Source: an uncultured Brevibacillus sp. (GTDB lineage Bacteria; Bacillota; Bacilli; Brevibacillales; Brevibacillaceae). Taken from it: a DNA stretch of 64,000 bases. Position numbers and translations under genes: made by a program. Below, piece by piece: positions 28,423 to 54,934 of the stretch; positions within the stretch are counted from its first letter, which is position 1; each line of letters starts with the position of its first letter. The stretch covers positions 1 to 64,000 of the forward strand of contig CAMIVR010000009.1 in the NCBI GenBank assembly GCA_946402065.1. Direction: 5' to 3'. Under the pieces are notes generated by a model. The model worked only from the letters and a program-made list of their open reading frames with translations. It made no database searches and had not been told where the DNA came from.

Positions 28423-28557
28423 CCACATCACACCTTATCCTTGAACAGTTTTCGAGCGATTGACTTAAGTATATTCCAAGTCAGCCTCCTGATCCATTAT
28501 TCGGACCCTTCTCCGGGGACCTACTAACTCCGGTGTGAAGGATTTGAACATACCGCT

Positions 28558-28613
28558 GTTGCCGCGCAAAATTTTCGGCAAAAATTCTCAACATATTTGG
28601 CAAAAATTTCGCC
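28558..28613. repeat. Candidate prophage terminus with transposase-binding repeats
   Basis: GGCAAAAATT occurs at 28578-28587 and again at 28600-28609, exactly 22 bp apart, with a third partial copy GCAAAATTT at 28567-28575. MuA-type transposases bind 22-bp sites placed side by side at phage ends. The sequence begins TGTTGCCGCGCA, which resembles the Mu right end TGAAGCGGCGCA. Exact terminus and target duplication cannot be confirmed without the other end. Confidence 0.5.
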
Positions 28614-28637
28614 GTTTCCTCGGGGTTCCCCATAGCG

Positions 28638-28671
28638 AAAAAGGGGAGGGTAGCGATGTGCCACCTTCCCC
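28638..28671 (-). terminator. Terminator of the phage late operon
   Basis: Minus strand GGGGAAGGT pairs with ACCCTCCCC (one wobble) and is followed by TTTTT. It lies 15 bp after the last phage gene and ~25 bp inside the candidate prophage end. Confidence 0.65.
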
Positions 28672-28685
28672 AATATATTTGTTGT

Positions 28686-28820
28686 TTAGTCTAATTTTCC
28701 TCTTCTTTGCAATTCGGCTCTCACGTCATCACGCAAGAAAACCGGGACTGCAATTTTACCCGGTTCGGATTCCAATGTTCTGAAACCAAGTTCAACCAAG
28801 TCTGCATACATGCTAACCAT
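28686..28820 (-). CDS. Small CD1375-like phage protein
   Basis: 44 residues from ATG 28820, with AAAGGAGGTG 6 bases upstream. The start MVSMYADLVELGFRTLESEP matches the pattern of CD1375-type small phage proteins found at the end of tail operons (MxxMYAxLIxxGxKTxxxVP). Basic/acidic C-terminus. Function unknown. A longer frame reading upstream overlaps the previous gene and lacks a ribosome site. Confidence 0.6.
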   Translation of the reverse strand: MVSMYADLVELGFRTLESEPGKIAVPVFLRDDVRAELQRRGKLD

Positions 28821-28821
28821 T

Positions 28822-29007
28822 CTAATCACCTCCTTTCGCAGCAAACATTTCAACGGCCTCCGCAAGCGCCAACTGCATTTCAATCTTGTCATTTACTTGC
28901 TTTTCAATAGTTTCAGCGAGCGCTAATTGGAGATTGAGTTTTTCTTCTTCCAATCTCTTAATCTTATCCTCTGGAGACTCCTTCACATTGCGAATAACCT
29001 TCCTCAT
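28822..29007 (-). CDS. Small coiled-coil phage protein
   Basis: 61 residues; its ATG overlaps the stop of the variable-protein gene (ATGA), so it is translationally coupled to it. After a basic start the whole sequence is a predicted coiled coil (KRLEEEKLNLQLALAETIEK and a near repeat EMQLALAEAVEM). Proteins of this type sit between tail fibres and lysis genes in Bacillota phages; function is not known. Confidence 0.6.
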   Translation of the reverse strand: MRKVIRNVKESPEDKIKRLEEEKLNLQLALAETIEKQVNDKIEMQLALAEAVEMFAAKGGD

Positions 29008-30653
29008 GACACACCCACCCCAATCACTGCGATTTCAATCTGGCCGAGCGCGAGGTTCGCCTCAACGACGTGCTTTACAGCAACCGCCCAATCGGCATGT
29101 GTCTTATCCTTGTTTTTGAAAACATACTCATTTCCTGCCTGATATTCCGTGGTCATTTCTTCCCATACGGGTGACGGGTCCAACGCATTGTTAGTGACAA
29201 AAACTCTATGAGTAGCCTCCGGGTCAATTGCTTTTTTGTCCATAACACTGATAGCCCGAGGTTGAAACTGGGTGATAGACGGATGCGTGTTAATCTCAAG
29301 CTTGTTGCCGATTCTCATGCTTATGGGTGACGAAAAACTGGGCGTTTTGCTTCCGCTATCAATAGATGCTATCTTACAATTTTTGACCGACCCTTTGGGT
29401 AAAGGTCTTGGATATACAATTCGCAACATCGCGCCGTGATTATCATTGGTAGCACTCGTTATCGGGACCCAATTGCCATCTGAATAGATTTCAAAGCCTG
29501 TTGTAATGTCTTCGAATTCTTCCATTCCTTCATCATCATAAAATCTGGCAAGGAATGTTTGAGTATCGCCATCAGGATCACTACCGATGATGAACCTAAT
29601 CTCCGGTTGCACACTAGTCCGCTGGCTGTTGATCGGGGAAATGATAACGGGTGCATCTGCCACCGAGCCGGTTTTGGTGAAAGTCCAAGTCCTTGTCGAT
29701 TTTGCGTTTTTTGAATCTGTAGCCTCAATCACTGCTGTATGCGAACCGAGATTCAAGCTACCCCATGCAGACGTAAGATCATAGATGTAATTTGCTCCCT
29801 GGTCTGCATTTGGTATGGTACGCACAACCACTCCATCGATTTTTTCAACGATTGTAACTGGGTCATTTTCTGGATCGATAACTGTATAAATCTTTTGCAA
29901 CGGTGTCGAAAAATTACCAAGATCACGATCACTATCAGAAATCAGAGGCGCAGAATTCAGGATTTCAAGGACGGGACGCCAGCCGCGATTGTCATTGCGA
30001 TACGACGACGAATTGTAAGGCCAGTAGCGGGCCGAAGAGTAGCCGCGAGACGCGCGGTAAGCGCTGTTGTGTAGATAAGTCTCTTGGCACCAAGAATAAA
30101 CGCCCATCCAGTTCCAAGCCTGGTTATGGACGCTATTCTTATCCGTATCGTTCAGCGTGGTATCAAGATCACTTGCAATCGGCACCGGAAGCCCCGAGAT
30201 ATTGTCCTCGTTCGTGATGAACCGATCCCACTCATTTGGTTGCTTTCCACCTTCGTAAGTTGTTCCTGTGCCACCTTCGCGCCTTTCTTCACCACCGGTC
30301 AAAAGCCGGAGTTTGTATTGCTGCCCATCAATCGTGATCGTCTTTCCGAACACACGGCCATCGCTATTCAAATCATCCCATGACACATTGACTAAAATTA
30401 CACGATCACAAACCAGCAGTGTCTTTGCGCCATCCTTGATTTTGTGCCACTGTAACTTGTTCGCATCATTGGAATCTGTATTGCCAATGTTCCAATTTCC
30501 GATGTTCGGATCAGTTGAAAAATCGGCGATATTTCCAACACCAGCCCCGGTATACGGTTCCGTTGTGATACGCCAAGGCCGCGTCGGTCTAGGCTTAACT
30601 GTGCTTCCGTTTCGTAGCGTTCCTAGTTTTACCAGACCTTCGTATGTTGCCAA
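29004..30653 (-). CDS. DGR variable protein: C-type-lectin-like domain with Ig-like stalk (tail fibre/adhesin)
   Basis: 549 residues from TTG 30653, preceded by AAGGAAG; the next residues ATYEGLVKLGTLRNGS look like a true N-terminus. The frame is open to 30743 but without a ribosome site. Residues ~50-235 form a C-type-lectin/formylglycine-enzyme-like domain. It ends with the variable repeat and the GWRPVLE motif (224-230) that is usual in DGR targets. Residues ~235-500 look like two or more Ig-like domains (DPENDPVTIV, VQPEIRFIIGSDPDGDTQTF), followed by a terminal domain. Probable receptor-binding tip diversified by the retroelement. The variable site is internal rather than C-terminal. The start overlaps the end of the RT gene by 59 bases. 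Confidence 0.85.
   Translation of the reverse strand: MATYEGLVKLGTLRNGSTVKPRPTRPWRITTEPYTGAGVGNIADFSTDPNIGNWNIGNTDSNDANKLQWHKIKDGAKTLLVCDRVILVNVSWDDLNSDGRVFGKTITIDGQQYKLRLLTGGEERREGGTGTTYEGGKQPNEWDRFITNEDNISGLPVPIASDLDTTLNDTDKNSVHNQAWNWMGVYSWCQETYLHNSAYRASRGYSSARYWPYNSSSYRNDNRGWRPVLEILNSAPLISDSDRDLGNFSTPLQKIYTVIDPENDPVTIVEKIDGVVVRTIPNADQGANYIYDLTSAWGSLNLGSHTAVIEATDSKNAKSTRTWTFTKTGSVADAPVIISPINSQRTSVQPEIRFIIGSDPDGDTQTFLARFYDDEGMEEFEDITTGFEIYSDGNWVPITSATNDNHGAMLRIVYPRPLPKGSVKNCKIASIDSGSKTPSFSSPISMRIGNKLEINTHPSITQFQPRAISVMDKKAIDPEATHRVFVTNNALDPSPVWEEMTTEYQAGNEYVFKNKDKTHADWAVAVKHVVEANLALGQIEIAVIGVGVS
29972..30065 (-). repeat. DGR variable repeat (VR)
   Basis: 94 bp matching the template repeat at 31830-31923 with 8 mismatches (30002, 30019, 30020, 30026, 30037, 30038, 30049, 30050). 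On the coding strand every mismatch replaces an A of the template: A to T five times and A to C three times at minimum count by position. It encodes residues 197-228 of the target. Changed positions are 202, 206, 210, 212 and 218 (Asn to Ser, Ser, Tyr, Pro, Tyr). The 3' end is an unmutated GC-rich stretch adjoining the initiation site. Confidence 0.95.
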
Positions 30654-31689
30654 AATAATCACTTCCTTTTCCTTCCACGTCGATATAGTCATACTTGGCA
30701 AAAATTCCCTTGCAAAGGTTAAAACTATTGGAATGGCGAGCATATCCCAGCCAACTGCTTACGGACTGGTTTACTTCCTTACTTGTCATCTCGCCAGCTA
30801 GCAGCTTACGGTGCATCGCTTTGATGCGTCGTTTCATGGCTCGTTTGGATTGATTCCGAACCAAACGATGCGTCGTCCATATCTTGTATCCATAAGCATT
30901 CACACCTTGCTTGAGTGGAAAGATTTTGGTCTTTTTGTTCGTTTGCAGATGTAGGAACGTGGATAAAAACCACTTCATGCGCTCCAAGATGCGTTGCGCT
31001 TCCTCTTTTGTCGGGAGAATAGCGATAACATCATCCATATACCGAACATACCACTTCACACTAAGAAAACGTTTGGCGTACTGATCCAACTCGTTTAGAT
31101 ACAGATTGGCAAACTCCTGTGATGTCGCATTTCCAAGTGGTAGACCTTTTTCGCCTTCTGGCGAACTGTCGATGATTTTATCAAGTAGCAAAAGTGTATC
31201 GTGGCAACGAATCTTTTTCCGTATGATGCGTTTCAAGACGTCGCGGTCAATGGAGTAAAAGAACTTGGCGACATCGAGTTTGATGATCCACCCGCCACCA
31301 TATTTCCATTGGCACAGTTTCATAAAGTGTTGGACACGATCCACCGCTTTATGGGTGCCCTTATCCTTCCTGCAAGCGAAACTGTCGCTGATGTACACCT
31401 TTTCATAGATTTGGCTGATCACGTTTTGCACGGCGAATTGCACAACCTTATCGCGAATTCTCGGCGCGTTGACGATGCGTTCTTTCGACTCAAACACTTT
31501 AAAAGTGATATAATCGCCAACTACATATTTTTTTGTTCGAAGCTCCTGCCATAAAGCAACCAAGTTAAGCTCTTTGGTCATGCTGAACAAAATCGCATCT
31601 TTCTTGAACTTTCTGTCAGCCTTCTGCGTTTGCCTATATGCTTTTTCGATGTTCGCGAAATCAGTTATTTGATCATAGAGAGTTGTCAT
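30595..31689 (-). CDS. DGR reverse transcriptase
   Basis: 364 residues. The RT palm motifs are intact: KLDVAKFFYSID with Asp139, the DGR-type motif LPLGNATSQ (183-191; group II and retroviral RTs differ here), and YMDD (217-220). The thumb region contains GVNAYGYKIW and a basic helix. The C-terminus is basic (RSGKTRNATKRKHS). In DGRs this enzyme copies the template RNA with errors at A, and the cDNA replaces the variable repeat. It lies 140 bp after the template repeat and overlaps the target gene, so the two are co-expressed. Confidence 0.95.
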   Translation of the reverse strand: MTTLYDQITDFANIEKAYRQTQKADRKFKKDAILFSMTKELNLVALWQELRTKKYVVGDYITFKVFESKERIVNAPRIRDKVVQFAVQNVISQIYEKVYISDSFACRKDKGTHKAVDRVQHFMKLCQWKYGGGWIIKLDVAKFFYSIDRDVLKRIIRKKIRCHDTLLLLDKIIDSSPEGEKGLPLGNATSQEFANLYLNELDQYAKRFLSVKWYVRYMDDVIAILPTKEEAQRILERMKWFLSTFLHLQTNKKTKIFPLKQGVNAYGYKIWTTHRLVRNQSKRAMKRRIKAMHRKLLAGEMTSKEVNQSVSSWLGYARHSNSFNLCKGIFAKYDYIDVEGKGSDYFGNIRRSGKTRNATKRKHS

Positions 31690-31829
31690 ATTGGCATCCT
31701 TTCATGGCTTGGCAAAATGACACTGTTCATGTGTTTACACCTTATAGGTGAAGGATTGGCTCTCCCTTGAAGTTCAAAGCCTAGTCGGCGAATCCGTAGA
31801 CGCGCCGATCGAATGACTTACTAACAAGT

Positions 31830-31923
31830 CGGGACGCCAGCCGCGATTGTCATTGCGATTCGACGACGAATTGTAATTCCAGTTGCGGGCCGAATTGTAG
31901 CCGCGATTCGCGCGGTAAGCGCT
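31830..31923 (-). repeat. DGR template repeat (TR)
   Basis: Non-coding 94-bp repeat in the 257-bp gap between the avd and RT genes. Read in the frame of its target it contains eight Asn codons (AAT/AAC), the usual way DGR templates place adenines at diversified positions. The RNA just after it (31740-31830) can fold, for example CGGCG with CGCCG and CACC-TTATA-GGTG, which may serve RT/Avd binding. Confidence 0.95.
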
Positions 31924-31946
31924 CATACAGAGCCAACCCTATGAAG

Positions 31947-32279
31947 CTAAGACTTTCTCATCAAACCGCCTGTAATTCTGCCAAGTTCTACGATTTTCCT
32001 TTGGACTTCAAGCAGTTTTTTGGCGGTAATATACCGTTGTTCCTTTGCAATCCCGAATAAGACAAGCAAAAGCTTCCATTCCGCATCGACTTGTTGTAAA
32101 TACATGCGTCGATTGGATCTCGATACATTCGCCAGCATAATGTGCCGAATCCCTCGATAGCAGGCTTGCTTGATTTCTTGACAAAGTGCAAATTTCTCTG
32201 CCTTCGGAAATCTCGCAAGAAGCGGATATATTTCATTGAGAAACACTTCCGCCTTCTTTTGCAGGATAAGCGGTTCCAT
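31947..32279 (-). CDS. avd: Avd-like DGR accessory protein
   Basis: 110 residues, all helical and basic, matching the four-helix-bundle accessory variability determinant that binds the RT and template RNA. Conserved-looking parts are FPKAEKFALCQEIKQACYRG and a C-terminal QRYITAKKLLEVQRKIVELG. Start ATG 32279 overlaps the previous stop (TGATG). The gene order avd-TR-RT is the standard DGR core. Confidence 0.85.
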   Translation of the reverse strand: MEPLILQKKAEVFLNEIYPLLARFPKAEKFALCQEIKQACYRGIRHIMLANVSRSNRRMYLQQVDAEWKLLLVLFGIAKEQRYITAKKLLEVQRKIVELGRITGGLMRKS

Positions 32280-32602
32280 CAAATAAACACCTTTCCATTT
32301 CCATACATTCCCTCAATGATCTGTACGCTATCGACTGATTTGATCGTATCGATGAAGACATGCTTCATCCCGAGGTCCGTCATTTCATGATTTAATGCGA
32401 CTTCAAAAGCAAGCGCCATAACATCATGTACCAAGCCTTGAATTTCCGGCTTAAACTCTTCCAACTTTGCCTGCAAGGTAACATCATTGTCTAGCAGTGG
32501 CTTCAGTACGGGATTGAAGTCGTCTGGATGCGCCCTTGTTTTCTCCGTAACCCCCTGGATCGTCTGGTTAATGGCAGGCAGAATGTTTCCCTGAATGCTC
32601 AT
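32279..32602 (-). CDS. Small tail-associated protein upstream of the DGR
   Basis: 107 residues, acidic, mostly helical. It begins SIQGNILPAINQTIQGV and ends FIDTIKSVDSVQIIEGMYGN. It lies between a collar/fibre protein and avd, ending on the avd start. I do not recognise a family; a fibre-attachment or chaperone role is a guess from position. Confidence 0.6.
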   Translation of the reverse strand: MSIQGNILPAINQTIQGVTEKTRAHPDDFNPVLKPLLDNDVTLQAKLEEFKPEIQGLVHDVMALAFEVALNHEMTDLGMKHVFIDTIKSVDSVQIIEGMYGNGKVFI

Positions 32603-32616
32603 TTGACCGTTCCCCC

Positions 32617-32997
32617 TTAAAAGATTGCGTCGAAATCAAACTCCAATTCGTCCGTCGATTCTAAGTTTTTTGTTGTGGTAGTCTTAATAGCAGCCAAGTC
32701 GCCATCTGCATCAAAGATACCCACTTCATTGATTCCTTTGTCCGCTAATCCATCTATATCAGCCTGCACGGCCAACGAATATCGGACCGTTGTCGAGGCA
32801 GGGAGAGAAGGGGTAACAGTCCGGCGGAGGACCTCTTGAAACAGCCCCGTTTCCTCGCCGGTTAAACTCTTCGGTTTTCCTTGCTGATCGACACCACCGG
32901 TACCAATGGCAATATGGGTTATTTCCGGCATAGGAGCGAGTCCTGCTACAGCACGCGCCAACTTCTCCCGATATACTTTCGTTCTCGCGGTCGCCAT
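32617..32997 (-). CDS. Tail fibre/collar-like protein
   Basis: 126 residues. The pattern ITHIAIGTGGVDQQGKPKSL with later LPASTTVRYSLAVQADIDGL is that of the N-terminal domain of phage tail-collar fibres, which attach to the baseplate wedge. No long fibre follows in the same frame, so this may be a stand-alone adaptor to which the DGR variable protein attaches. Confidence 0.65.
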   Translation of the reverse strand: MATARTKVYREKLARAVAGLAPMPEITHIAIGTGGVDQQGKPKSLTGEETGLFQEVLRRTVTPSLPASTTVRYSLAVQADIDGLADKGINEVGIFDADGDLAAIKTTTTKNLESTDELEFDFDAIF

Positions 32998-33009
32998 CTT
33001 ACTGCCTCC

Positions 33010-34065
33010 TTAAATCGTTTCCTCTTCGATAATTTCACCATTACGGATATGACGAACGACGCAGGAATCGGCCAGCTCTAAGTAAAGGTCGATTCCCTTT
33101 GAATTGACCCCGTCAAAAGTATGCGCCCCGTCAAAGCGCCACGCTCCATTGAATGTCAAAACTCCTGGGTCAATCGCATCATACTTTCCTACCCCCAAGT
33201 ACCAAGGGAATGCTTTGAATTTAGCTCCGGCATCCATATCCTGAATGTGGGCCAGCGCTTTGCTCTTGACGGTAGCTAACGATTGTATCTCGATAGGGAA
33301 TGGAATGCTGATCCGTTGGGACAAACGAATGAAGCAAGGCATAGAAGCCGCTAAATAAACGTCGATTCCTTTTTCGTTTATCCCGTTAAAGAATCTCGTT
33401 CCATCAAACTGCCAAGTGCCGTTAAAGACAAGGCTGCCAGGGTCAGAAACTTCAAGCTCGCCAAATCCAAGGAATTGGTAGAGCATTTTCCATTTTGCTT
33501 TACTTTCGATTCTCCATCCCGAGTCAATGATCGCGCGGCTTTTCATCTTTGCTGCTGCTTGAGCGTGAAAATCACTCGGGACTTCGATAAGCAAGCCCAC
33601 AATATGCAGCAAGTGCGCGGGCTTCACTTCGTTGAAGGCCGTTTTTAAACCGGAATAGCTGACCAAATCGTCGATTTCATAGATTGTCTTAAACGTATAG
33701 TTGCTGTACAGCGGAATAAAACGGGCGCTGCGTGTCCGACTGTATGCATTCGCCAAATCAATGGCCGCTTGTTCAGTAAAGGAGCCGGTGCCAGCAATGC
33801 GTCCCTTGATACGAGAACGCCGCTCTTCGTAGGTATCATTTGGATCAGGAGTCAGCCCCCATTCCTCTTCCCAAATTTCCAGCCCCCAGCTCGCTGTTTC
33901 GATAAAAGCCTGGTCTAGTATCTCATCGAACATGAACCATACCTTATCAATCTCTATACCTTCCGTGTCCAGTAGCGCTCGCATAAGGTGAGACTTTGCG
34001 TAATCCTGATGGAGATAGCCCATCATAATGGGGCCGCGCGTACTCGTCCAATCATTGGGATTCAC
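33010..34065 (-). CDS. DUF2313/YmfQ-like baseplate protein with duplicated C-terminal module
   Basis: 351 residues. The first ~185 fit the DUF2313 (YmfQ/XkdU) family: ILDQAFIETASWGLEIWEEE-type start, TPDPNDTYEERRSRIKGRI and a KPAHLLHIVGL-like end. The last ~150 residues hold two copies of DPG-x-L-x-FNGxWxFDG, each ending KGIDxYL (near residues 218-245 and 300-325). Only the first part is usual for the family. The repeats may bind a fibre or cell-wall sugar. Start ATG overlaps the baseplate-J gene by 14 bases. Confidence 0.75.
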   Translation of the reverse strand: MNPNDWTSTRGPIMMGYLHQDYAKSHLMRALLDTEGIEIDKVWFMFDEILDQAFIETASWGLEIWEEEWGLTPDPNDTYEERRSRIKGRIAGTGSFTEQAAIDLANAYSRTRSARFIPLYSNYTFKTIYEIDDLVSYSGLKTAFNEVKPAHLLHIVGLLIEVPSDFHAQAAAKMKSRAIIDSGWRIESKAKWKMLYQFLGFGELEVSDPGSLVFNGTWQFDGTRFFNGINEKGIDVYLAASMPCFIRLSQRISIPFPIEIQSLATVKSKALAHIQDMDAGAKFKAFPWYLGVGKYDAIDPGVLTFNGAWRFDGAHTFDGVNSKGIDLYLELADSCVVRHIRNGEIIEEETI

Positions 34066-35152
34066 GAACTGTCACCACCCCTAATACAGCTACCTCGCCA
34101 GGCGCGATCTCGATATTCCCTTCGCGTCCATTTACTTGGAGTTGGTCATAATCAACTACCGGTGGAATGTCCAGGATAATATTTGCTATTCGTGTATACC
34201 GGACTAACGGATCAGAAAAGGCCAGCGTTTTTAAGTAAGCCCGCGCGCCTTCCTCAATCATTTGTTTGACTTGATCCACCGTTCCGTCACTTGCCAGCGT
34301 GACCGAAACAGAAATGTTAATAGGGACTTCAACCGCACCAGCAACTGTTACCGTGGCTCCAATAGGGCAGACGCTTTGGATAAAGGTATTTACCTGATCC
34401 ACTATAACGGGGGAGGGTGCAACCTTTTCAGCGCTTATCAAAACTACTTTTACCGTTCCCGGTCCATCCCAAAGAGGAACGACTTGCACACCCCCGACGC
34501 CTGGAATCGAAAGCGCCCATTGCTCATAGTCTGCTTTGTTCCCACTTCCTGTTGGCGTGCGAACCTTCAGCAAGAAACGCTCTAGCAATGAGCTGTCGCT
34601 TTCTTCATCCGTCCCGCCTTCCATTGCGGAAAGGTTGGTTACAGACTTGATACCCGACAGCTTTTCCGTTAAGTGACGGATTGCGCCTGGTGGCACGTTG
34701 CCGATCCGTCCCGGTTCAAGAGCTTCGGCCTCAACGAATCCCTCACCATTTGCATTCAATGTAACAGACCTTGTGATCTTAAATAGAATCGCAGGGGAGG
34801 ATTCCGTGCTTTCTGTACTGATCACATAACCGTTCGGGACGAACGATCCGGGATCGCCATCGAAACGGATGGTTTCCCCGGTTGTTTTGGCCGTGGTAGC
34901 CGGTCGACGGAAGACGCCGTGTTCAGCGCAACGCGCGTCTAAATAGACTCCGAACGTCGTTGAAGCAAATACTCGCCGCAGCACTTCTTTGGCCCAGTCT
35001 GCTGCTTGTGTTAGCTGGATCGCGACAGGGGCCAATATATCCCAAGGGAAAGACCCTTCAGACCGATCCAATTTGGCTGGTAGACGAGATAGCATGCGTT
35101 CCCTGATCGCTTCTTCTGTTTCATCCTCTAAAAAAGGGGGAAGTTGGGTCAC
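34052..35152 (-). CDS. Baseplate J-like protein (XkdT)
   Basis: 366 residues. Baseplate-J family features: N-terminal ERMLSRLPAKLDRSEGSFPW with ILAPVAIQLTQ, central GPGTVKVVLISAEKV, and C-terminal RYTRIANIILDIPPVVDY. It forms the wedge of the contractile baseplate. ATGA overlap with the upstream XkdS-like gene. Confidence 0.9.
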   Translation of the reverse strand: MTQLPPFLEDETEEAIRERMLSRLPAKLDRSEGSFPWDILAPVAIQLTQAADWAKEVLRRVFASTTFGVYLDARCAEHGVFRRPATTAKTTGETIRFDGDPGSFVPNGYVISTESTESSPAILFKITRSVTLNANGEGFVEAEALEPGRIGNVPPGAIRHLTEKLSGIKSVTNLSAMEGGTDEESDSSLLERFLLKVRTPTGSGNKADYEQWALSIPGVGGVQVVPLWDGPGTVKVVLISAEKVAPSPVIVDQVNTFIQSVCPIGATVTVAGAVEVPINISVSVTLASDGTVDQVKQMIEEGARAYLKTLAFSDPLVRYTRIANIILDIPPVVDYDQLQVNGREGNIEIAPGEVAVLGVVTVRESQ

Positions 35153-35586
35153 AAGCTCACCTCCAACCGTTGTTCGCTCCCGACAACCGGAACTACCGTA
35201 AAGGATACCCTGGCCGAGTCTCCTTCAAATTGATGGTCAAAGTCGACAACCGCCTGTGTTCGCGGATCAACAAGCAACGCCTCTGTAATCATCCGCTCAA
35301 TCTCTGACTTAACTGCGGCTCGCGTTGGTTGACGGCGGGCACTCCGCAGCTCGCTGCCATAGTCCGTTGAGTATGCCAAATAAGCAAAACGTTCGGTCAT
35401 AACTGCTTTTTGGCACCACTGTGCCCAGGCCGTATGACCGTCCGCCATAACAAAACGACCCGCACCATCAACAACAAAGTCGCCGTTGGCAAAATCAAAC
35501 AGCGGACTTTCGGGATATTGAATAAGGTTCGGGCGATTCTCTTCGACTAACTGCGGCATATCAAAAGTCGGAAATAGATTAGGCAC
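35149..35586 (-). CDS. DUF2634 baseplate protein (XkdS-like; gp25 role)
   Basis: 145 residues. Middle part AYSTDYGSELRSARRQPTRA followed by VKSEIERMITEALLVDPR is the wedge-type gp25/DUF2634 pattern. It helps start sheath polymerisation in contractile tails. Overlaps both neighbours by a few bases. Confidence 0.85.
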   Translation of the reverse strand: MPNLFPTFDMPQLVEENRPNLIQYPESPLFDFANGDFVVDGAGRFVMADGHTAWAQWCQKAVMTERFAYLAYSTDYGSELRSARRQPTRAAVKSEIERMITEALLVDPRTQAVVDFDHQFEGDSARVSFTVVPVVGSEQRLEVSL

Positions 35587-36007
35587 CGGCTGTCACCACC
35601 TTGCTGATTATGACCGGATCGCTGCGCACCCACAAGACAAGAACACGATCACCCGGCTGAAGCTCAGGGGCAAATCGAAGATTCACATGTGGGACGTGCC
35701 CACTGTCCTTACCGCCAGCAAAATCTATTCGGGTCGGCGGTGATAAAGTTGTGCCTGGTGTATCTTCACCCTCCGAAGTCACAGGGGAAGCCATCCGAAC
35801 CACGCGAGATAAGAGCGGGATGGTTACGTCCAGCATCCATTCAGCGACCAGGTAGTCACTGCGGGGGATAGGAGGGCCAAACTGATCCAGCCGTAAGTTT
35901 CCTTCCTCGTCAATAACCCCAAAATCCATTGTGCTGGGGGCTGCTGTTTTTTTGATTGTCCTGGCATCGATTGCTCGGGCCAGTCGATTTACTCCTTTAC
36001 CCGTCAT
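35579..36007 (-). CDS. DUF2577-like baseplate/hub protein (XkdR-like)
   Basis: 142 residues. N-terminal helix (GVNRLARAIDARTIKK), then beta-rich OB-like sequence with LQPGDRVLVLWVRSDPVIISKV at the end, the signature of DUF2577 proteins that associate with the tail hub or spike. Position between XkdQ- and XkdS-like genes agrees. Confidence 0.8.
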   Translation of the reverse strand: MTGKGVNRLARAIDARTIKKTAAPSTMDFGVIDEEGNLRLDQFGPPIPRSDYLVAEWMLDVTIPLLSRVVRMASPVTSEGEDTPGTTLSPPTRIDFAGGKDSGHVPHVNLRFAPELQPGDRVLVLWVRSDPVIISKVVTAGA

Positions 36008-36996
36008 ACACTTTCCACCTCCATGACCATGCTGCGGGAATCCGCGTCATGCTGAATGCCCGCAACGACAAAATAACCTATCAGCGTTCCAGCAGCGATA
36101 TACACCTTATCGCCACGGCGGAGGAACGGAAGGTCAGGAGCGGTAACGGTTCGTCGTTTACGAGGAACACCCCGTTCTTTCAAAATTTCCTGCGCTGCTG
36201 CTTTTGCTGCCGCAGCGGTATCGTACTGCTCTTGATAGATGACGTCCTGTAAAACCCCGAACTCTGTCCTGCCATCCAAAGTTGCAACGACCGGCGCGCG
36301 GCCTTCTGCATTTTCTTTGCCAACTATTTTGACACGAGTAACGAGGTCCTCAATGTCTTGCTTATCTGTCATCCCTCGAACAATATCCGTACCAAACTGG
36401 TACACTGTTTTGTTTTGCCCCTGACGAAGAACATGAATAGCACCGCCACTCGCCCGAATGACGTGCTTTCCGCCCCCGCGCTTGTGAACTTGATCCAGAA
36501 CCTTTTCAAGCATCGCGGCTAGTGTATCCCCTCGAAAGACTTGCTTCGGCAGCGACATACTCGGAACATCAATCTGCCCAATAGGGATGTTCCAAGCTTT
36601 GGCGATGTCCCGGATAATGACGTCGGCCTTTGTACCATTGGGATAATACCGATCATCCTTGCTGCGCAGGAGATAGATCAGGTTGTCGTATGATTTAACA
36701 GACAAAACACCAACAGAATCATTTTCATATTCCCAGTCGAAAATGACCCCTTGATGGATGTTTTGCCATCCTTCTCCCCAGTTGGACCGAAGAATGGTTC
36801 GCGCACCCAAAGGCAATTTTTGATGCAACCACCCATCACCAAACTTTTGATTCAGTACCCGAAATTGAAGCCGGACGGCCAATTCACCCGACTGTTCTTC
36901 CCAACCCAAGCAGTTTGCCACGTTTGACAGGGGAAGCAGTTCGCCGCTTGGCAGAAAAACACCAACGTCGTACTTTACATCAGCTAAATTGATCAA
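36004..36996 (-). CDS. XkdQ-like tail hub protein
   Basis: 330 residues. Family segments: SYDNLIYLLRSKDDRYYPNG followed by IIRDIAKAWNIPIG, HVIRASGGAIHVLRQGQN and the C-terminal LRRGDKVYIAAGTL. XkdQ proteins form the hub of the contractile tail, functionally like T4 gp27. ATGA overlap with the next gene. Confidence 0.88.
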   Translation of the reverse strand: MINLADVKYDVGVFLPSGELLPLSNVANCLGWEEQSGELAVRLQFRVLNQKFGDGWLHQKLPLGARTILRSNWGEGWQNIHQGVIFDWEYENDSVGVLSVKSYDNLIYLLRSKDDRYYPNGTKADVIIRDIAKAWNIPIGQIDVPSMSLPKQVFRGDTLAAMLEKVLDQVHKRGGGKHVIRASGGAIHVLRQGQNKTVYQFGTDIVRGMTDKQDIEDLVTRVKIVGKENAEGRAPVVATLDGRTEFGVLQDVIYQEQYDTAAAAKAAAQEILKERGVPRKRRTVTAPDLPFLRRGDKVYIAAGTLIGYFVVAGIQHDADSRSMVMEVESV

Positions 36997-37007
36997 CGTA
37001 GCACCTC

Positions 37008-37655
37008 CTACACAGGCAAACGTAAAACCTGACCTGGCTTAATCGCATTCGGATCAGGACCGATCAGCTTTTTATTTTCGGGAATGTTATAAATCTCAGG
37101 GTGTCTCGCGCCGTTTTGGAGGTGTTTCTTAGCGATTCCCCAAAGCGTATCGCCTTTCACAACCGTATGCGTCTTGGGGGGTGGGGGAAGAGGACGGGAG
37201 GCAGATAGCACTTTTGCCTCCCCATTGGATTTTGCTTCACCTTCTGAGCGGATCAGGATGTCTCTAGCCTGTACCAGCTCCAGGGAATACCGCATATCCC
37301 CATGCCCACCTTCCCAGGTGTGTTCAAATGTTTGGATGTAAACATCATGATTGAACGGGGTTTCCGTCACCAACAACCGCAATTTTTTGCCTTCGTTCCG
37401 CCAGGCCGAAAGGTCCCCTGCTATAGCTCCCGGATCGCGCCACGACTTGACCAACACGGTGTTTTTTCGTGTCTCTCCAGGGAGCAGGCCATCAAACGTA
37501 ATCCGTGTCAATACCGTGCCGCGTGGCAAGGCGTACTCGCCAAGTTCTATCGCTTCAAACGTTTGAATGCGTGCAGCGGTGACGGCAGTAATGCGTTCCG
37601 GGTTCATAGGGAAGTGTAACCGTTTGCCGGTTTCGTCTGTCAAATAGAAGTCCAT
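37008..37655 (-). CDS. LysM-domain tail protein (XkdP-like)
   Basis: 215 residues. N-terminal part MDFYLTDETGKRLHFPMNPE leads to a beta-rich domain, and a C-terminal LysM peptidoglycan-binding domain (HTVVKGDTLWGIAKKHLQ, ending PGQVLRLPV at the last residues) is clear. Such proteins link the tape measure and hub and may contact cell wall. Confidence 0.9.
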   Translation of the reverse strand: MDFYLTDETGKRLHFPMNPERITAVTAARIQTFEAIELGEYALPRGTVLTRITFDGLLPGETRKNTVLVKSWRDPGAIAGDLSAWRNEGKKLRLLVTETPFNHDVYIQTFEHTWEGGHGDMRYSLELVQARDILIRSEGEAKSNGEAKVLSASRPLPPPPKTHTVVKGDTLWGIAKKHLQNGARHPEIYNIPENKKLIGPDPNAIKPGQVLRLPV

Positions 37656-37666
37656 ACCCTCACCGC

Positions 37667-40600
37667 CTACACACTGTTATCGGTTGAACCTTCGAGGCGC
37701 GCCCCGATCTTCTCGGCGATTTCATCGGCGATTTCGTCGCCATGCTCGCGAATCGCTTCGATAACATCTTCGCCGTTGCCTTCAACTGTAATGGAGAAGT
37801 GAACGCCGCCCAGATTGATTGTTAGCCCCGTTCCCGACGGCGCGAGCGGAGCGACCGGCCCAAATGCGGGTGCTTGTACGGAGCCGACAATGCCACCGAA
37901 AGCAAAGGGACGCACACCAAGCATTTGCCCGGCTTGCTCCCACAGTTCCCGGCCTCGGTTTCTCATGCCAGGCGACAGGGGGATGATCGCTTCCGGTCCG
38001 GCTTCGCCAACCAACCCAAAATGTGGGCGGGTGATGAAGCCACCTCGGGCGTAAGCCTTTGCACCACCAGCCGCAGCCGCTTGCCCAGCTTCCTTACCTT
38101 CGCTGAAGGCGCTGCTGACCTTGCTCCAAAAACTGCCCCATTTGCCCTTGATATTCTCCCAGGAACTGTGCGCCCAGCTTTCAACACCTCTCCATTTTTC
38201 TTTCCACCAATCCCCATTGAACAGGGTGCTGTCGATAGAATCACGGGCATTGTTCCAAGTCTCTTCCAAATCTGCCCAAGTGTTATTCGCCCAATCTTCG
38301 ACGCCTTTCCATTTCTCATTCCACCATTCACCGTTAAAGATTGTTTCCTCAATGGCGGAGATAGCGTCGTTCCAGGTTTGTTCTGCATTTTTCCAGGAGG
38401 CATCCGACCAAGCTTCGACAGCGCTCCATTTCTCGTTCCACCAATCTCCGCTGAAAAGAGTGCTGTCGATGTAGCCGACGGCAAAGCCAATTCCTCTGGC
38501 GATTGCTTGCGGAGCGGTGTCGGAAATCCAGTTCCAGGTATCGCCTGCGATGCGCTTCACGCCATCCCAAGCATCTCGCGCTATGTCACCTAGCTGGTCA
38601 AACTGTCCGCCGAGCCATTCTCCAATCGCGCCGCCGCCCAGACTTCCCAAGATACCGCCGATCAGACCGCCGACTGCTGTTCCTAACCCTGGAATAATCG
38701 AACCGAGTGCAGCGCCGCCAGCAGCTCCAGCAGTGAATCCGCCCCAACTGCCGACCGTTCCACCGATAGCCCGGTTTCGTTCCTCTCCAGGACGAGCAGA
38801 AGCGATGCTCAGTGCATCCAGGCCAATCCCCAGCGGGAGGGCTGCTTTTCCGGCAACACGCGAAATCAATCCCATTTCTTTGCTTCCGCCCAGCAGTCGC
38901 TTCCACCAGCTTTGCTTTGGCAAGGCCGTTTCTGCCGTTTCTAAAACAGGAGTCACAGCAGCCCTGGACGTGGCAAAGACTTCTCTGGCTTGATCCACGC
39001 GAAGTTGCTGCGTTTTTGCAACGTCTTTCAAATCACTCACTTTACGCGACTGGGTAATGACTTCACTCCTGGCAGCTTCAACAGCTTTTTTAGCTTCTGT
39101 AACCTTTTTGTCCAATCCAGCCGGAATAGGTGTTCCAAATCTCCGGTATGCCTCTGCCGCGTCCGCAGATTGTTTGGTAAGCTGCTTGTATTGCTTGACT
39201 GTTTCATTCAGTTTCGTTTGACTGGCATGTCGTGCTTTTTCAGCAGCTTGTACAGCTAATTCAGCCTCTTTAGCCTTGTTGATCGCTTCACGGAAGGAGG
39301 CAGCGCTTGTCTTCAGGTTAGCGGTTGACTTGGCTAGATCGGCAGACGAAGCGGACGGGATGGAATCCGCAGCCGACGGAATTGGCGTTTTACCGCCTCC
39401 GAATATCCGTCGGTACCAAGGAACTTGACGGACTGCATCGGATGCGGTTGCTGCGGTGGCGGCAGCAGTTGTGGCGACGTCGCCCCGCATCATTTGAGAA
39501 ATACTTCGTCCTCCCTTGACCAACCCTCTGCCAAGTTTAAACGGGCCTTTAAGCAATTTTCCGACCTTTGTAATCAACCAGGCATCCATCATCAGCGCAA
39601 GCGACTGACCTACCGGGCTGCTTGTCTCACCGCCAAGCCAGGTTGGTTGTAGATTAAGGAATGCTTCTTTTGCCTTTTGCGCGATTTTCCCTGCATCGAA
39701 GGCTTCGAGAAACGCTTCAAGAAAAGAGCGTCCAGCGGAGGCACCAGCTTCAACAAAAGGCGAATCGCTAATCTTTGCTTCCGCGTCGGTCCCCATACCT
39801 AGAAGACCAAGAAGCACGCTATTCAGCCCGGCACCTAACGCACCGCCGATGCTTGCGGCGATGGAATCAACTCGTTCCTTGCCGCCGCCAGCCCACCAAG
39901 ACGCGAACGGTTCACTGATAATTTTGTCCCAGGCGATTTTCACTTTCCCGAACAAATCAGCGTTTTTGAACTGTTCGTCATGAAAGAGTGCCCGAAGATT
40001 GCGGGTCATGACTTGGACTTTATCCACGAAATACCGCGTGAATCGAGAAGCTACTTTTTCCACCTGATCGCCCATCCTGGCGATTCCTTCGGCATTTTCC
40101 TTTCGCCATTGGCGAAACGATTGTAAAAGGGGTGTGATCCCATCAGTCAAACCTTGACCCCACCGCTTGATGATGTTGTTCATAAAAAACGATTTGACGC
40201 CCAGGAGAAGGTTAGCCAGGTTGTCCGAAAGCTTACTCATCATCCCGTCGAACCGGGCAAATTCCTGGACTGCTTTCGGCCATGTTTTGCTGATGTCCAT
40301 TCCTGAATCGGCCAACTTCTCCAGCCGTTCACGAGCAGCTCCCGAAATAGCCCCCATTTCCTGAAGGGCGGATGTCATCTCGCCAACCGGACGACCCGAC
40401 GCCATCGCGTCATAAAGCCGCCCCATCCACAGCGCAACATCACCAAATTCCTTTTGCGTACCAGCCGCAATGTCACCGACAAGCCGCAATCCCTCACCGG
40501 TCGAAAGAGCATTTCCGGTAAATACTTGCAGGACCCGGCTGGCTTCATAAATCTCATCACGGGTATAGGGCGTTGTTCCGGCGAAAGTCGTCAATTCCTC

Positions 40601-41047
40601 AACACGCTTTTTGGCCGCTGCGGCATCACCGAGCAATACCTCGAAGGCCGTCTCGATATTTTGCTGTTGCATGACCATTTTCAACGGCACCACAATGCCC
40701 CCGGCTGTCCCTGCGCCAATACCCAGGATGCCAAGGGCTGAATTCATGCCTCTTAATATCGTCCGGAATGGGGAGGTAGCCATATCCAAAACACTGACTG
40801 TGATTCGGTAGCTACTGCTAGCGACACGGCGGGCCAATGCGCCTATTCTGTTGATCATTGCTGAAGCGCGGTCAAGGACATGGATCGCGAGCTGCCAGCG
40901 GGTGCGATTCATTTGGTCAAGCCGTTTTCGCGTACGATCTGCGATCTGATCAAACCTGCTTACTTTCTTTTCGGCATTCGACAGACTGGGTTCGGTCCGA
41001 TCCTCAACCGTCACCGGGATTTCAATGCGGTATACCTCTTCAGCCAC
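37667..41047 (-). CDS. Tape measure protein (XkdO-like) with three 39-residue repeats
   Basis: 1126 residues from GTG 41047 (AAGGGG 9 bases upstream). It holds long helices and coiled coils, a Gly/Ala-rich hydrophobic region near residues 770-830 that may cross membranes, and the conserved end FGLVGEAGPEAIIPLSPGMR. Near residues 855-970 three tandem 39-residue units share LFNGDWWNEKW-x-GVE-x-W, with period 117 bp in DNA. By the rule of ~0.15 nm per residue the tail would be ~170 nm. Starts just after the frameshift product of the chaperone genes, as expected. Confidence 0.92.
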   Translation of the reverse strand: MAEEVYRIEIPVTVEDRTEPSLSNAEKKVSRFDQIADRTRKRLDQMNRTRWQLAIHVLDRASAMINRIGALARRVASSSYRITVSVLDMATSPFRTILRGMNSALGILGIGAGTAGGIVVPLKMVMQQQNIETAFEVLLGDAAAAKKRVEELTTFAGTTPYTRDEIYEASRVLQVFTGNALSTGEGLRLVGDIAAGTQKEFGDVALWMGRLYDAMASGRPVGEMTSALQEMGAISGAARERLEKLADSGMDISKTWPKAVQEFARFDGMMSKLSDNLANLLLGVKSFFMNNIIKRWGQGLTDGITPLLQSFRQWRKENAEGIARMGDQVEKVASRFTRYFVDKVQVMTRNLRALFHDEQFKNADLFGKVKIAWDKIISEPFASWWAGGGKERVDSIAASIGGALGAGLNSVLLGLLGMGTDAEAKISDSPFVEAGASAGRSFLEAFLEAFDAGKIAQKAKEAFLNLQPTWLGGETSSPVGQSLALMMDAWLITKVGKLLKGPFKLGRGLVKGGRSISQMMRGDVATTAAATAATASDAVRQVPWYRRIFGGGKTPIPSAADSIPSASSADLAKSTANLKTSAASFREAINKAKEAELAVQAAEKARHASQTKLNETVKQYKQLTKQSADAAEAYRRFGTPIPAGLDKKVTEAKKAVEAARSEVITQSRKVSDLKDVAKTQQLRVDQAREVFATSRAAVTPVLETAETALPKQSWWKRLLGGSKEMGLISRVAGKAALPLGIGLDALSIASARPGEERNRAIGGTVGSWGGFTAGAAGGAALGSIIPGLGTAVGGLIGGILGSLGGGAIGEWLGGQFDQLGDIARDAWDGVKRIAGDTWNWISDTAPQAIARGIGFAVGYIDSTLFSGDWWNEKWSAVEAWSDASWKNAEQTWNDAISAIEETIFNGEWWNEKWKGVEDWANNTWADLEETWNNARDSIDSTLFNGDWWKEKWRGVESWAHSSWENIKGKWGSFWSKVSSAFSEGKEAGQAAAAGGAKAYARGGFITRPHFGLVGEAGPEAIIPLSPGMRNRGRELWEQAGQMLGVRPFAFGGIVGSVQAPAFGPVAPLAPSGTGLTINLGGVHFSITVEGNGEDVIEAIREHGDEIADEIAEKIGARLEGSTDNSV

Positions 41048-41053
41048 CGGTGA

Positions 41054-41745
41054 TCACCCCTTGTTTCCTTGCTTCGCCAGCAAAGCCCGACGTTCTTCCG
41101 CTTCGGCCTCTAACGCTACTTTCGTTGAGACAAAACAAAAAAGCCGCTCACCTTCGGGCAGCTTTAGGATTTCACTCGGGAGTTTTCCCTGGCGCTGAAA
41201 AATATGGTGCAGGAGAGTTGCTTTTCCTCCTGCCTGGATCAGTTTTTTATGATTTCTTCAGCCTCTCCGCTTTCCTCTTCGTCGAGGTCATATCCAGATA
41301 AACGATCAATCTGTTCGATGACCGCTTCTTTTTCTCCGGGAAGCAGAACCTTGTCGATGAGCTGCACGCCACTAATGACATTGAGCTGATCCCACGCCGA
41401 TTTGTTATTCCAGACCTTTTTGCGATCTTCTTCGATGGTCGCTTCATAGATGAGGAAAGAGCGGTATCTAGCTGTATCCGTGTCATCTGGCATTTTAATG
41501 CCGCCCAAGCGGCGGTTTTTCTTATACTTGGTTGCTTTATCTCGGCAGGAGTTGTATTCCGCTTCGGTCAACGGACGAATTCTGAATCGGAAAAAGACTT
41601 TGCCTTTGCGAGCGATTTCGATTACCTTTCGTTCTTCTTCTGTGTTGGCCGCTGCATCGAGCAGGCCGCGCAGGATGTCCGTTTCGTTGTCCAACAATTC
41701 CTCTGGCGATGTGCGTTCGTCTTCATGTTCGGAAAATGGTTTCAC
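41054..41745 (-). CDS. Tail assembly chaperone pair made by -1 frameshift (XkdN-like)
   Basis: The zero frame (41239-41745) gives 168 residues ending EEIIKN. The slippery heptamer A-AAA-AAC lies at 41248-41242, in register, right at that stop codon. A -1 shift continues for 62 more residues (ending at 41054) through GKLPSEILKLPEGERLFCFV and an acidic helix. The joint product is 230 residues. Contractile and siphophage tails use such gpG/gpGT-type pairs to load the tape measure protein. The next gene is the tape measure, as in those phages. Confidence 0.8.
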
Positions 41746-41809
41746 AGTTTCATTCCTCCTGAAGGGTAGTTGGTAGGGAAGCGCCCAGGGATTCCCCAGG
41801 CGCTACTCG

Positions 41810-42256
41810 TTATCTGCTGGCGCGAAGTACGCCGGTAAAGTTGAATACGGCATCAGGCGCTTGAGAGCGCAAGCTGTCGACCAGTTTTTTAAGCAGGATC
41901 GCATCGCGAATCACTGTTTCGGTAAAAGTCAGTGTCATGCTGTAACTTTGCATGATTGCCCAGGTATGCTTTTGCCCGGCGGGCTGATAGTCCGAGTTGG
42001 TAATACTGATCTGCGCTTGCCAGGTGTTTACTTCGGCCAAGAACGTACCGTCGCCGTCGTACAGCTCGCCGGAATATCCCCGCGAGATATTACGGAAATC
42101 AAAGACGCCATAATCAAGCATTTGCTGAATGTCCGGCGGGCTGTTCACCCGGAAAGACCAGGCACGTTGCACGATCTCCCCGACTTGAATGTTCGCCACG
42201 TCGATGGAGCCGTCCGGGACGCAATCCCGGAAAATATATCTTGCATCCTTCGCCAT
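41810..42256 (-). CDS. Tail tube protein (XkdM-like)
   Basis: 148 residues, beta-rich: ARYIFRDCVPDGSIDVANIQ at the N-terminus and SMTLTFTETVIRDAILLKKL towards the end. Follows the sheath gene by 16 bp with AAGGAGG before ATG, the usual sheath-tube order. It forms the inner tube through which DNA passes. Confidence 0.85.
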   Translation of the reverse strand: MAKDARYIFRDCVPDGSIDVANIQVGEIVQRAWSFRVNSPPDIQQMLDYGVFDFRNISRGYSGELYDGDGTFLAEVNTWQAQISITNSDYQPAGQKHTWAIMQSYSMTLTFTETVIRDAILLKKLVDSLRSQAPDAVFNFTGVLRASR

Positions 42257-42272
42257 CGTTGTTTAAACCTCC

Positions 42273-43694
42273 TTACGCCGTTTTCGGCGAAAATTGGAAC
42301 CCGAAATCCATGTACAGCTTTTCGATGCTGTCCAAGTCGGCCAGGTCCGTGAAGCGGAACCATGCCGAATCGCCTTGCGGCGGATTGTCGGGGTCCACGA
42401 CCAATTGACCGCTTTCCAGTCCACCCTCGCGGATCATCGTCTGAATGATCCCGTTCGCAATGGTGATGACAAACGCGCGGCCATCTTCATTGTTGTTCCA
42501 TTTACCGAGGTACGGGTGGAGCGTATACACGATCCGATCGATCAGTTCAAATCGGGTCTTTGTGCGGCGAATTTTCTTCCAGCCCTCGTCTTCGTCAGCC
42601 AGAAGCGTTACTTTGGTGTTAATTCCGTAATCAATTTGCGCCAAGCCGTCCGGGTTGAGCGAGAAGGTGAGCATACCGGATTGAATTGCCTCTTTGTACT
42701 GCGCATTCGTCAGTTCTCCGACCAGATCGATAGAGCCGGTCATTGGAACATGGGTTAAGCTGACATTGTACGCACTGGAGGCAATCACTCCGGCTACCCG
42801 AGCAGCCGCTTTTGCACCTTCCACCGGACCGCTGGCAGTCTGAAATCCGTTGCCGACATAGACGACGGCAAAATCGTTGAATGCTTTGGCGTTTTGCTTT
42901 CGCGTCGCAAACGGGACGCTGGTCGGTTCGCCGACCACGCCGATAATCCGCCCGCCGCCTTCGGCCAGCATACGGTTGACGAATGACTGAAGGGAGGCGT
43001 GAACCGCTGCGTCCTCGGAATCGACCGTGATCGTATCGAAGAATTTGCGTTCCAACAGCATAAAAGCATTCGCATAATCCTCGCCGGTGATAGCCGGATC
43101 AGTACCGCCGGTTAACGGTTCATCCAGCAACGTGTCTAATTCGCCAGCGCCATCGGCCAGCTTGGCAGCGTTGAGGTATTGGCTCTTTGCGTTGATCACC
43201 TCAACAAGTCGAGCCGGTTCGCCGTTTCCTTTCGCAAACAGCAGACGTTCCATTTGACGGGTGTTCTCATGCACTAACAATTCCCGCATGTCCGTGTCGT
43301 CCAGTGAATCGCGGATCGTAACCGTGAACGGGCGGGTGGTCGGATATTTGGTCGTCAGTTTGACAACTTTGACCGCCGTATCGGCGGTGTCGGTCAGCTC
43401 CAGCGACGCCTTTGTGCCACCGGTCCCGCTCCGAACGGCCAGCACCGTGCTGGCTCCGCCCGAGAAAATTTCTCGGATGCACTCCGGGCCGTTGCCACTT
43501 CCGAGCTTTCCGGTCAACTCGCCAGGCGACTCGACCGTAACAACTTCACCGAGCGGCCCCCAATTTGATTTGATGACGGCAGCAGCGACGCCGACCGTTC
43601 CCGTGACAACACGGGCACCGCCAGCATTATGCCAGCGGACATAGACGTCCGGCCTGACCTTCTGCTCGCCCAAAATGAATGTTTCTCCTGGCAT
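42273..43694 (-). CDS. Tail sheath protein (XkdK-like)
   Basis: 473 residues. Start PGETFILGEQKVRPDVYVRW and VTGTVGVAAAVIKSNWGPLG are the sheath N-terminus; DYANAFMLLERKFFDTITVD and RTKTRFELIDRIVYTLHPYL are later conserved blocks. The C-terminus inserts into neighbouring subunits during contraction. Shows that the phage has a myovirus-type tail. Confidence 0.92.
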   Translation of the reverse strand: MPGETFILGEQKVRPDVYVRWHNAGGARVVTGTVGVAAAVIKSNWGPLGEVVTVESPGELTGKLGSGNGPECIREIFSGGASTVLAVRSGTGGTKASLELTDTADTAVKVVKLTTKYPTTRPFTVTIRDSLDDTDMRELLVHENTRQMERLLFAKGNGEPARLVEVINAKSQYLNAAKLADGAGELDTLLDEPLTGGTDPAITGEDYANAFMLLERKFFDTITVDSEDAAVHASLQSFVNRMLAEGGGRIIGVVGEPTSVPFATRKQNAKAFNDFAVVYVGNGFQTASGPVEGAKAAARVAGVIASSAYNVSLTHVPMTGSIDLVGELTNAQYKEAIQSGMLTFSLNPDGLAQIDYGINTKVTLLADEDEGWKKIRRTKTRFELIDRIVYTLHPYLGKWNNNEDGRAFVITIANGIIQTMIREGGLESGQLVVDPDNPPQGDSAWFRFTDLADLDSIEKLYMDFGFQFSPKTA

Positions 43695-43697
43695 GGG

Positions 43698-43898
43698 TTA
43701 CACCTGCCTTTTCTTAAAATCTTGAATCGCCCGTTCCACTTCGGCACGGGTCAGGGTGTCCTTGTCCACCCGACGCAGCGCTCCGGCCATCATGTCGGGG
43801 GAGACTCCAAACCCGGCGACAGCGGCCATGATTTCCTGCTTGCTGTAGGTGGCTTCAGGCTTTGTTTTTCGCGTTTTGCTTTCTTTCACTTCCGTCAT
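43698..43898 (-). CDS. Small lysine-rich protein before the sheath gene
   Basis: 66 residues from ATG 43898, with GGAGGTG 7 bases upstream; longer reading upstream lacks a ribosome site and overlaps the preceding gene. Basic start (TEVKESKTRKTKPEATYSKQ) and a helical end that looks like a small helix-turn-helix-like segment (DMMAGALRRVDKDTLTRAEV). Unknown role; small proteins at this place occur in PBSX-like tail modules. Confidence 0.6.
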   Translation of the reverse strand: MTEVKESKTRKTKPEATYSKQEIMAAVAGFGVSPDMMAGALRRVDKDTLTRAEVERAIQDFKKRQV

Positions 43899-44724
43899 AG
43901 TAAGCACCTCCGTTAATGGCAATCTGATTAAGCGGCGGCACTGTCGCACTCGTCCGTAGGATGCCGAACCGCACATCCAAGGCGATTTGCCCGGTGCGGA
44001 ACGGGTCCAGGGAGCTGTCGGCGGATACCCTCTGGATGATCATGCGAGACTGGTCCAGCATGGTGATGTGGCCGTCGAGGGCGAGCTGCCGGACTGTCCG
44101 ATCCAGCCATGTATTGCGGGCCGGAACGCGAGGGACGAGCATATGGCCGCGCATGGTCGCGTCGATCCACGCGCCCCAGTTTATCGTTTGGATGCTGCGG
44201 ATCGCGGCGATCCGCCAGTACAGGGCTGGCGTCTCGTCCGACGGGTTCCAGCTCTGTGGGTCCGTCTGCATGGACGGAAACCGCTGCGCCGCCCATGCAG
44301 ATAACGCCGATGCAGGATCTGGCTCCAGCGGCTCATGCAGCAGCCAGCCGAGCGAAAAGACTTCGAATTGAACACCCCGCGTAATGGCGTTGAACTTTTC
44401 GTCCAACATGTCCGCGCTGGTCGAGCCGGTGAACCGGCACAAGATTGCCTCACCGGTGACACTGTCCGTGAGCAATCGGTGATCAAGAGCGTCAATCACA
44501 GCAGAGACAAGGCTGTCCACATACCTAAATTGTGTGTGTGCCACATAGGGCCATACTTCAATCATGGAACTGATTCCCGCCCAGTCGTTTTCGTCCGATT
44601 CCGACCCTTTCGTCATAACGAGGTAGGGCTTTTCTTCGTCCGCTGCGGCTGCGTCCGTTTCGAAGACGCGACCAGCGATCTCGGGGATATGATCAATAAG
44701 CTGCTGACGTATGAGTCCGCGCAT
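43855..44724 (-). CDS. Phage protein between connector and sheath genes (tail terminator candidate)
   Basis: 289 residues from ATG 44724, with GGAGGG 9 bases upstream. The first ~160 residues have the size and strand order of a tail-terminator protein (PYLVMTKGSESDENDWAGIS, then HTQFRYVDSLVSAVIDAL). The rest (~130 residues) is an extension I do not recognise (TPALYWRIAAIRSIQTINWG). It overlaps the upstream HK97-gp10-like gene by 1 base. The role is inferred from position. Confidence 0.6.
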   Translation of the reverse strand: MRGLIRQQLIDHIPEIAGRVFETDAAAADEEKPYLVMTKGSESDENDWAGISSMIEVWPYVAHTQFRYVDSLVSAVIDALDHRLLTDSVTGEAILCRFTGSTSADMLDEKFNAITRGVQFEVFSLGWLLHEPLEPDPASALSAWAAQRFPSMQTDPQSWNPSDETPALYWRIAAIRSIQTINWGAWIDATMRGHMLVPRVPARNTWLDRTVRQLALDGHITMLDQSRMIIQRVSADSSLDPFRTGQIALDVRFGILRTSATVPPLNQIAINGGAYYDGSERKQNAKNKA

Positions 44725-45161: not shown

Positions 45162-45162
45162 A

Positions 45163-45914: not shown

Positions 45915-45978
45915 ATGCACCACTCCCGTACCAAAGAGAGCCGAGTGGACCCGTCTCCTTTGTCAATTATTTTGAGAA

Positions 45979-47010: not shown

Positions 47011-47028
47011 GGTTCATTAACCCCCTTG

Positions 47029-47442: not shown

Positions 47443-47457
47443 GATTGAAATTCCTCC

Positions 47458-48507: not shown

Positions 48508-48557
48508 TCTTTTCTCACCTCTTTGTCAGGGTCAACCTGTTCAATCGATCCGCTAAC

Positions 48558-48583: not shown

Positions 48584-48642
48584 TGTAAGTGGAACGGTAT
48601 AGATTCGGACGGGGTAAACTGTTAGAACGCACAGGAGGCGTT

Positions 48643-49955: not shown

Positions 49956-49960
49956 ACGGT

Positions 49961-54930: not shown

Positions 54931-54934
54931 CCGT

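Follow-up and report, generated by a model that had tools for sequence, protein, structure and literature searches.

A Mushu-type diversity-generating retroelement with an RT-9 RNA in its spacer, located in a Mu-like prophage of an uncultured Brevibacillus

The closest described counterparts of the system studied here are diversity-generating retroelements (DGRs) of phages. In the DGR of the Bordetella phage BPP-1 (AY029185), cDNA synthesis is primed by an adenine inside the spacer RNA, which folds and recruits the reverse transcriptase (RT) together with Avd (PMC12875486). The direction of transfer in the same phage is set by a segment of 21 bp that differs from the template repeat (TR) at five positions (PMC3240598). 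The DGR of the phage FP_Mushu (Mushuvirus mushu, MG711460) from Faecalibacterium has a variable repeat (VR) that varies in virion reads (PMC5883640). The Mushu target shows, in published models with a modelled C-type lectin (C-lec) fold, the topology of tentaclins, in which a C-type lectin domain with a VR hairpin stands at the N-terminus and is joined by one to four immunoglobulin-like (Ig) domains and a conserved domain at the C-terminus (PMC10743442). We analysed 64,000 nt of contig CAMIVR010000009.1 from an uncultured Brevibacillus sp. (assembly GCA_946402065.1); further in this study the whole stretch is referred to as the window. It very probably contains a complete Mushu-type DGR, probably a functional one, within a Mu-like prophage. 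This kind of cassette is already known, and the member is new.

The cassette lies entirely on the minus strand in the order avd-TR-RT-target. The gene of the DGR accessory protein Avd occupies positions 31947..32279 (or 32282) and matches Pfam bAvd (4e-27), PHROG Avd (8.8e-28) and NCBIfam DivGenRetAVD (81.3 bits with a cut-off of 80 bits). It is followed by the 94-nt TR (31830..31923), containing eight Asn codons, the 140-nt TR-RT spacer (31690..31829) and the RT gene (30595..31689), whose product has the LGNATSQ and YMDD motifs and matches RVT_1 (1.3e-18) and phrog_1423 (1.8e-122). The target gene (29004..30653) contains the 94-nt VR (29972..30065). Just 3' of the homology TR reads GACTTGTTAG and VR reads GTCCTTGAAA, in the manner of the two forms of the initiation of mutagenic homing site, IMH* and IMH. 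A first-pass annotation, made from the letters of the window without database searches, had proposed a complete DGR; its coordinates for Avd, TR, RT and the target were all borne out, and the reading is supported by Avd, the TR/VR pair, an RT of the DGR clade and a target with VR. Relatives drawn from collections of genomes and of viruses show the same gene order. Neither a second VR nor a second target was found in the same genome, the VR sequence matching VR and TR only, and a single close RT is present genome-wide.

Alignment of the two 94-bp repeats yielded 91% identity with exactly eight mismatches, all on TR adenines. Given 21 adenines among 94 nt, the hypergeometric chance of this outcome is 1.8e-6. 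The recount thus agrees with the first-pass annotation, as does the sequence of the codons: the eight TR Asn codons appear in VR as Ser, Ser, Tyr, Pro, Asn, Tyr, Asn and Asn, five being changed. A looser extension of the repeats adds one further adenine mismatch (9/9 over 96 nt). The pattern extends to 31 TR/VR pairs, from the window and 30 relatives, where 341 of 361 mismatches fall at TR adenines, a figure slightly biased upwards by the repeat finder, which discarded pairs with less than 60% of their mismatches at A. Adenines constitute 684 of the 2890 bases (24%) in these TRs, and they are changed to T in 131 cases, to G in 132 and to C in 78.

One of the templates shows a peculiarity of its own. 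Between the TR of locus L022 (5771-5868), on the contig that also carries L043 and L070, and its close relative in L018 there are six differences. All six positions are adenines in L018, as if the L022 template had been hypermutated too. The contig is metagenomic, and an assembly mix-up of TR and VR is possible.

The RT profile retrieved as its best PDB match 8ub7 (listed as 'Reverse transcriptase'; E 7.7e-66), which we take to be the BPP-1 DGR complex; a group II RT was matched with E 4.7e-31. In the tree of 68 RTs the window RT belongs to a 34-row clade together with phage Mushu (support 100/99), nested in a 40-row clade (90/83). The second large group holds BPP-1, BalMu-1, VHML and others, and the far outgroup is a further RT from the window's own genome. 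Scores against the family models of group II and retron RTs were 128 bits (cut-off 300) and 54 bits (cut-off 235), respectively. Assignment to retron, group II or defence RTs was rejected given the tree position, the PDB profile and these scores below the cut-offs; the RT groups with DGR RTs, as had been claimed from its sequence.

Mushu is among the closest described systems. Its element and that of the window belong to Mu-like phages and have the order tail genes-avd-TR-RT-target, RTs from the same 100/99 clade, an RT-9 RNA in the spacer, and related Hoc-like targets. They differ in the order of the host and in sequence, the RTs and the targets each being about 45% identical. BPP-1 shares with the window Avd, adenine mutagenesis, a structured spacer, and a TR-spacer helix followed by one nucleotide and A. 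In contrast, its target lies upstream of avd (target-avd-TR-RT order), its spacer belongs to the Rfam family Phage_DGR and not RT-9, an 8-bp hairpin follows its VR, and its RT is in the sister clade. Filing the cassette as BPP-1-type was therefore rejected, as neither the hairpin after VR nor the target-avd-TR-RT order is present. The Bacillus phage BalMu-1 (KP063903), likewise Mu-like and with a host from Bacillota, has an RT of the DGR type together with TR and VR, but its target is upstream of TR, its spacer matches Rfam RT-14, and its RT is 38% identical to that of the window. As a DGR, the cassette adds a well-preserved member to the Mushu branch; the results on its spacer, given below, are the part that specialists may not expect.

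The target is a putative tentaclin/Hoc-like adhesin of 549 amino acids (phrog_36643, 9e-118; also the 'Hoc-like' phrog_10993). Its TTG start sits within the RT gene, overlapping the RT end by 59 nt, and the target starts inside the RT gene in several relatives as well. VR covers residues from about 197 to 227 and thus belongs to the N-terminal domain rather than the C-terminus. The protein is homologous to the Mushu target (45% identity over 416 aa); the match to phages nd4 and nd12 is confined to one Ig stretch. Among 25 aligned targets, conservation is seen in the domain with VR at the N-terminus and in the C-terminal region, and the number of middle domains varies; Pfam Big_9 is found in targets of 17 of the 25 relatives, and the window's own protein has no Pfam match. 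Tentaclins have a comparable layout, with VR in the N-terminal domain, Ig-like domains and a conserved domain at the C-terminus (PMC10743442). The AlphaFold2 model of the target has mean pLDDT of 84.5 and pTM of 0.50 with low values around VR, and a Foldseek search with this model for the C-lec domain returned, near the top, only Ig/Fn3-type matches. Hence the C-lec fold rests on homology, and the description of the target as lectin-like in the first-pass annotation stands as far as the kinship with Mushu and tentaclin targets suggests it and is not confirmed by the model of the protein itself.

The most informative part of the cassette, absent from the first-pass annotation, is the spacer RNA. 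The Rfam family RT-9 (RF03080) matches positions 31721..31810 of the minus strand with 85 bits, given the gathering score of 46.1 bits. RT-9 was found in the spacer of every scanned relative from the 40-row RT clade with an intact spacer, Mushu (86 bits) included. In the viral collection, a pattern restricted to the RT-9 core matched 21 stretches, each directly upstream of a DGR-type RT, and of 398 sampled genomes from the phylum, two carry RT-9, at five sites, each adjoining a DGR. Annotation as the spacer RNA of DGRs is open to RT-9 and, from five loci, to RT-14, which makes RNA, in addition to RT, a handle for finding new DGRs. A literature search found no paper tying RT-9 to DGRs or describing its pairing with the TR 3' end or the spacer-VR pairing; key papers were outside its coverage, so that an earlier notice is possible.

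Two observations concern the distribution of these RNAs. RT-9 is also present in DGRs of the canonical order with VR upstream of avd and TR (L080, L086, L088, L091, L093 and L099), and its presence thus goes with the clade of the RT rather than with gene order. Rfam RT-14 matches the spacer between TR and RT in BalMu-1 and in four viral contigs (L037, L097, L098, L107 and L110), and in these five loci it looks like a DGR spacer RNA too.

In most relatives RT-9 contains CAAGG complementary to CCTTG at the TR 3' end, where the identity between TR and VR stops. In the window the TR 3' end reads ACTTG (31825..31829, minus strand), and four of the five pairs with CAAGG are formed; the spacer segment involved is TTCAAGGG (31764..31771, minus strand). 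Compensatory changes of the two sides are observed among relatives, the matched variants being CAGGG/CCCTG (in two separate clades), CGAGG/CCTCG, CAAGA/TCCTG and CAAAG/CTCTG. Overall, pairing holds in 181 of 195 cells, the register of TR in three divergent rows having been fixed by hand. The shuffle mean is 172.8, none of 20000 shuffles reached 181, and the best shifted register yields 148. The signal is weaker over distinct combinations only (588 of 20000 shuffles), and the third pair repeatedly shows an A-C mismatch. In BPP-1, ATCACCT of TR pairs with AGGTGGT of the spacer, after which come one nucleotide and A56, presumably the priming adenine. The spacing from the helix to the invariant A of GGGA in RT-9 is identical, and the A at position 31763 (minus strand) is the predicted priming adenine of the window.

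The same spacer segment pairs at greater length with the 3' flank of VR, TCCTTGAA (29964..29971, minus strand), by seven Watson-Crick pairs and one G-U. The pairings of the window are short (seven plus one G-U with VR, four with TR); over 31 loci the segment forms 7–16 contiguous pairs with the VR flank compared to 0–5 with TR. Shuffled VRs are exceeded at p of 0.05 or less in 21 of 27 loci. Outside the universal core, cognate spacer-VR pairs beat swapped ones with p of 0.00015, a value that ignores kinship, partly reflects one event and concerns a coding flank. At the corresponding site of BPP-1, nine Watson-Crick pairs join AGGTGGTCA and TGACCACCT. Since RNA duplex energies in 32 canonical DGRs showed only a marginal cognate advantage (p of 0.03 for VR and 0.01 for TR), generality is not claimed. 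A hairpin directly after VR was looked for as well: the longest stem is 3 bp in the window and 3–6 bp in relatives, none above chance, compared to 8 bp in BPP-1.

A tentative reading, possible if not probable, is that the RT-9 spacer guides in two steps: the short pairing with TR would site the primer adenine, the fuller pairing of this segment, by then covalently attached to the cDNA, with the VR flank would anchor the cDNA on the target, and the difference between IMH and IMH* would be one of complementarity to the spacer. The mismatches that set the direction of transfer in BPP-1 would accordingly be read through the spacer. The longer pairing with VR than with TR would be a possible physical basis for the TR-to-VR direction, and in this clade it may stand in for the hairpin that follows VR in BPP-1. 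The direction of transfer is an open question in DGR biology, and the pairings allow it, together with priming, to be framed as a base-pairing rule that can be put to the test. The spacer-VR complementarity might instead be a by-product of TR having once been copied from VR, with the spacer pairing to TR and the protein code preserving VR, and we consider the case for this to be evenly balanced. The VR flank is indeed coding and conserved, and the reservations on the cognate-pair statistics and the marginal result in canonical DGRs agree with it. On the other side, the spacer matches VR past the point where TR diverges in 31 of 31 loci, and BPP-1 shows this pattern independently.

The pairing with TR has to be weighed against a local hairpin (AGGGA/UCCUU), proposed by RNAalifold, for which CAAGGGA of RT-9 would be conserved. 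This seems unlikely to be the explanation, as a double change is seen in just one of the five hairpin pairs and the hairpin leaves the combinations CAAGG/CCTTG, CAGGG/CCCTG and CGAGG/CCTCG unexplained. The hairpin and the TR-spacer pairing could alternate.

By analogy with BPP-1 and Mushu, a functional cassette would produce a single avd-TR-spacer-RT-target transcript. Its spacer would fold as RT-9 RNA and bind RT and, if these two phages are a guide, Avd. Pairing of the spacer with the TR 3' end would let the spacer adenine prime cDNA synthesis, as in BPP-1, RT would copy TR misreading adenines, and the cDNA would replace VR in the target by retrohoming. As a result, a putative virion adhesin would have its Asn-coded residues randomised within the N-terminal domain.

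Activity is likely, although several points weigh against it. No other strains with different VRs were found, the nearest RT relative being 68% identical, and neither reads nor a second isolate supplied new VR variants. TR and VR are identical across the three copies in Maledivibacter (L005, L006 and L012) and the four in genome G405 (L032–L035), which suggests little or no homing in these prophages since the copies arose. A clean VR peak was missing from Mushu in a later study (PMC11792537), and one pair is missing from the TR-spacer helix of the window. The absence of documented variants, the identical VRs of multi-copy relatives and the missing pair would all suit a relic, that is, a cassette that once diversified VR and is now dead. 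Such a state is nevertheless rather improbable: RT, avd and the target are all open, the RT motifs are intact, and not a single TR/VR mismatch of the window falls on a base other than A. That TR and VR are an ordinary duplication beside an uninvolved retron or group II RT is scarcely conceivable, since the sub-threshold matches to group II and retron models are outweighed by the adenine-only divergence here (8/8) and its recurrence over the 31 pairs, the RT tree, the PDB match and Avd.

The DGR is sited at the far end of the prophage according to gene annotation of the window and the contig. With tentative ends, the prophage (minus strand) spans 28557..64000 in the window and runs on to roughly contig position 67527. 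The location of the DGR at the end of a Mu-like prophage, claimed by the first-pass annotation, was corroborated by both transposition and Mu-type tail genes: a MuA-type transposase (contig 62942-65011), a MuB-type protein and Gp48 were identified, along with terminase, portal, sheath, tape measure and tail-collar fibre genes. A small open reading frame upstream of avd (32279..32602, minus strand) has no Pfam or PHROG match. A candidate 5-bp target duplication, ACCGC at 28557/67527, was picked from many candidate pairs, and prophage ends at these two positions are plausible. Near the proposed right end, at 28567-28608, there are two 20-nt repeats 22 bp apart, which could be transposase sites. 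The source assembly (G000) is listed at 8% contamination; the contig itself reads like one coherent prophage. Outside the proposed prophage end, the stretch 27739-28300 is 91% identical to DNA of genome G060 from another family, and this similarity suggests that a recent transfer is likely.

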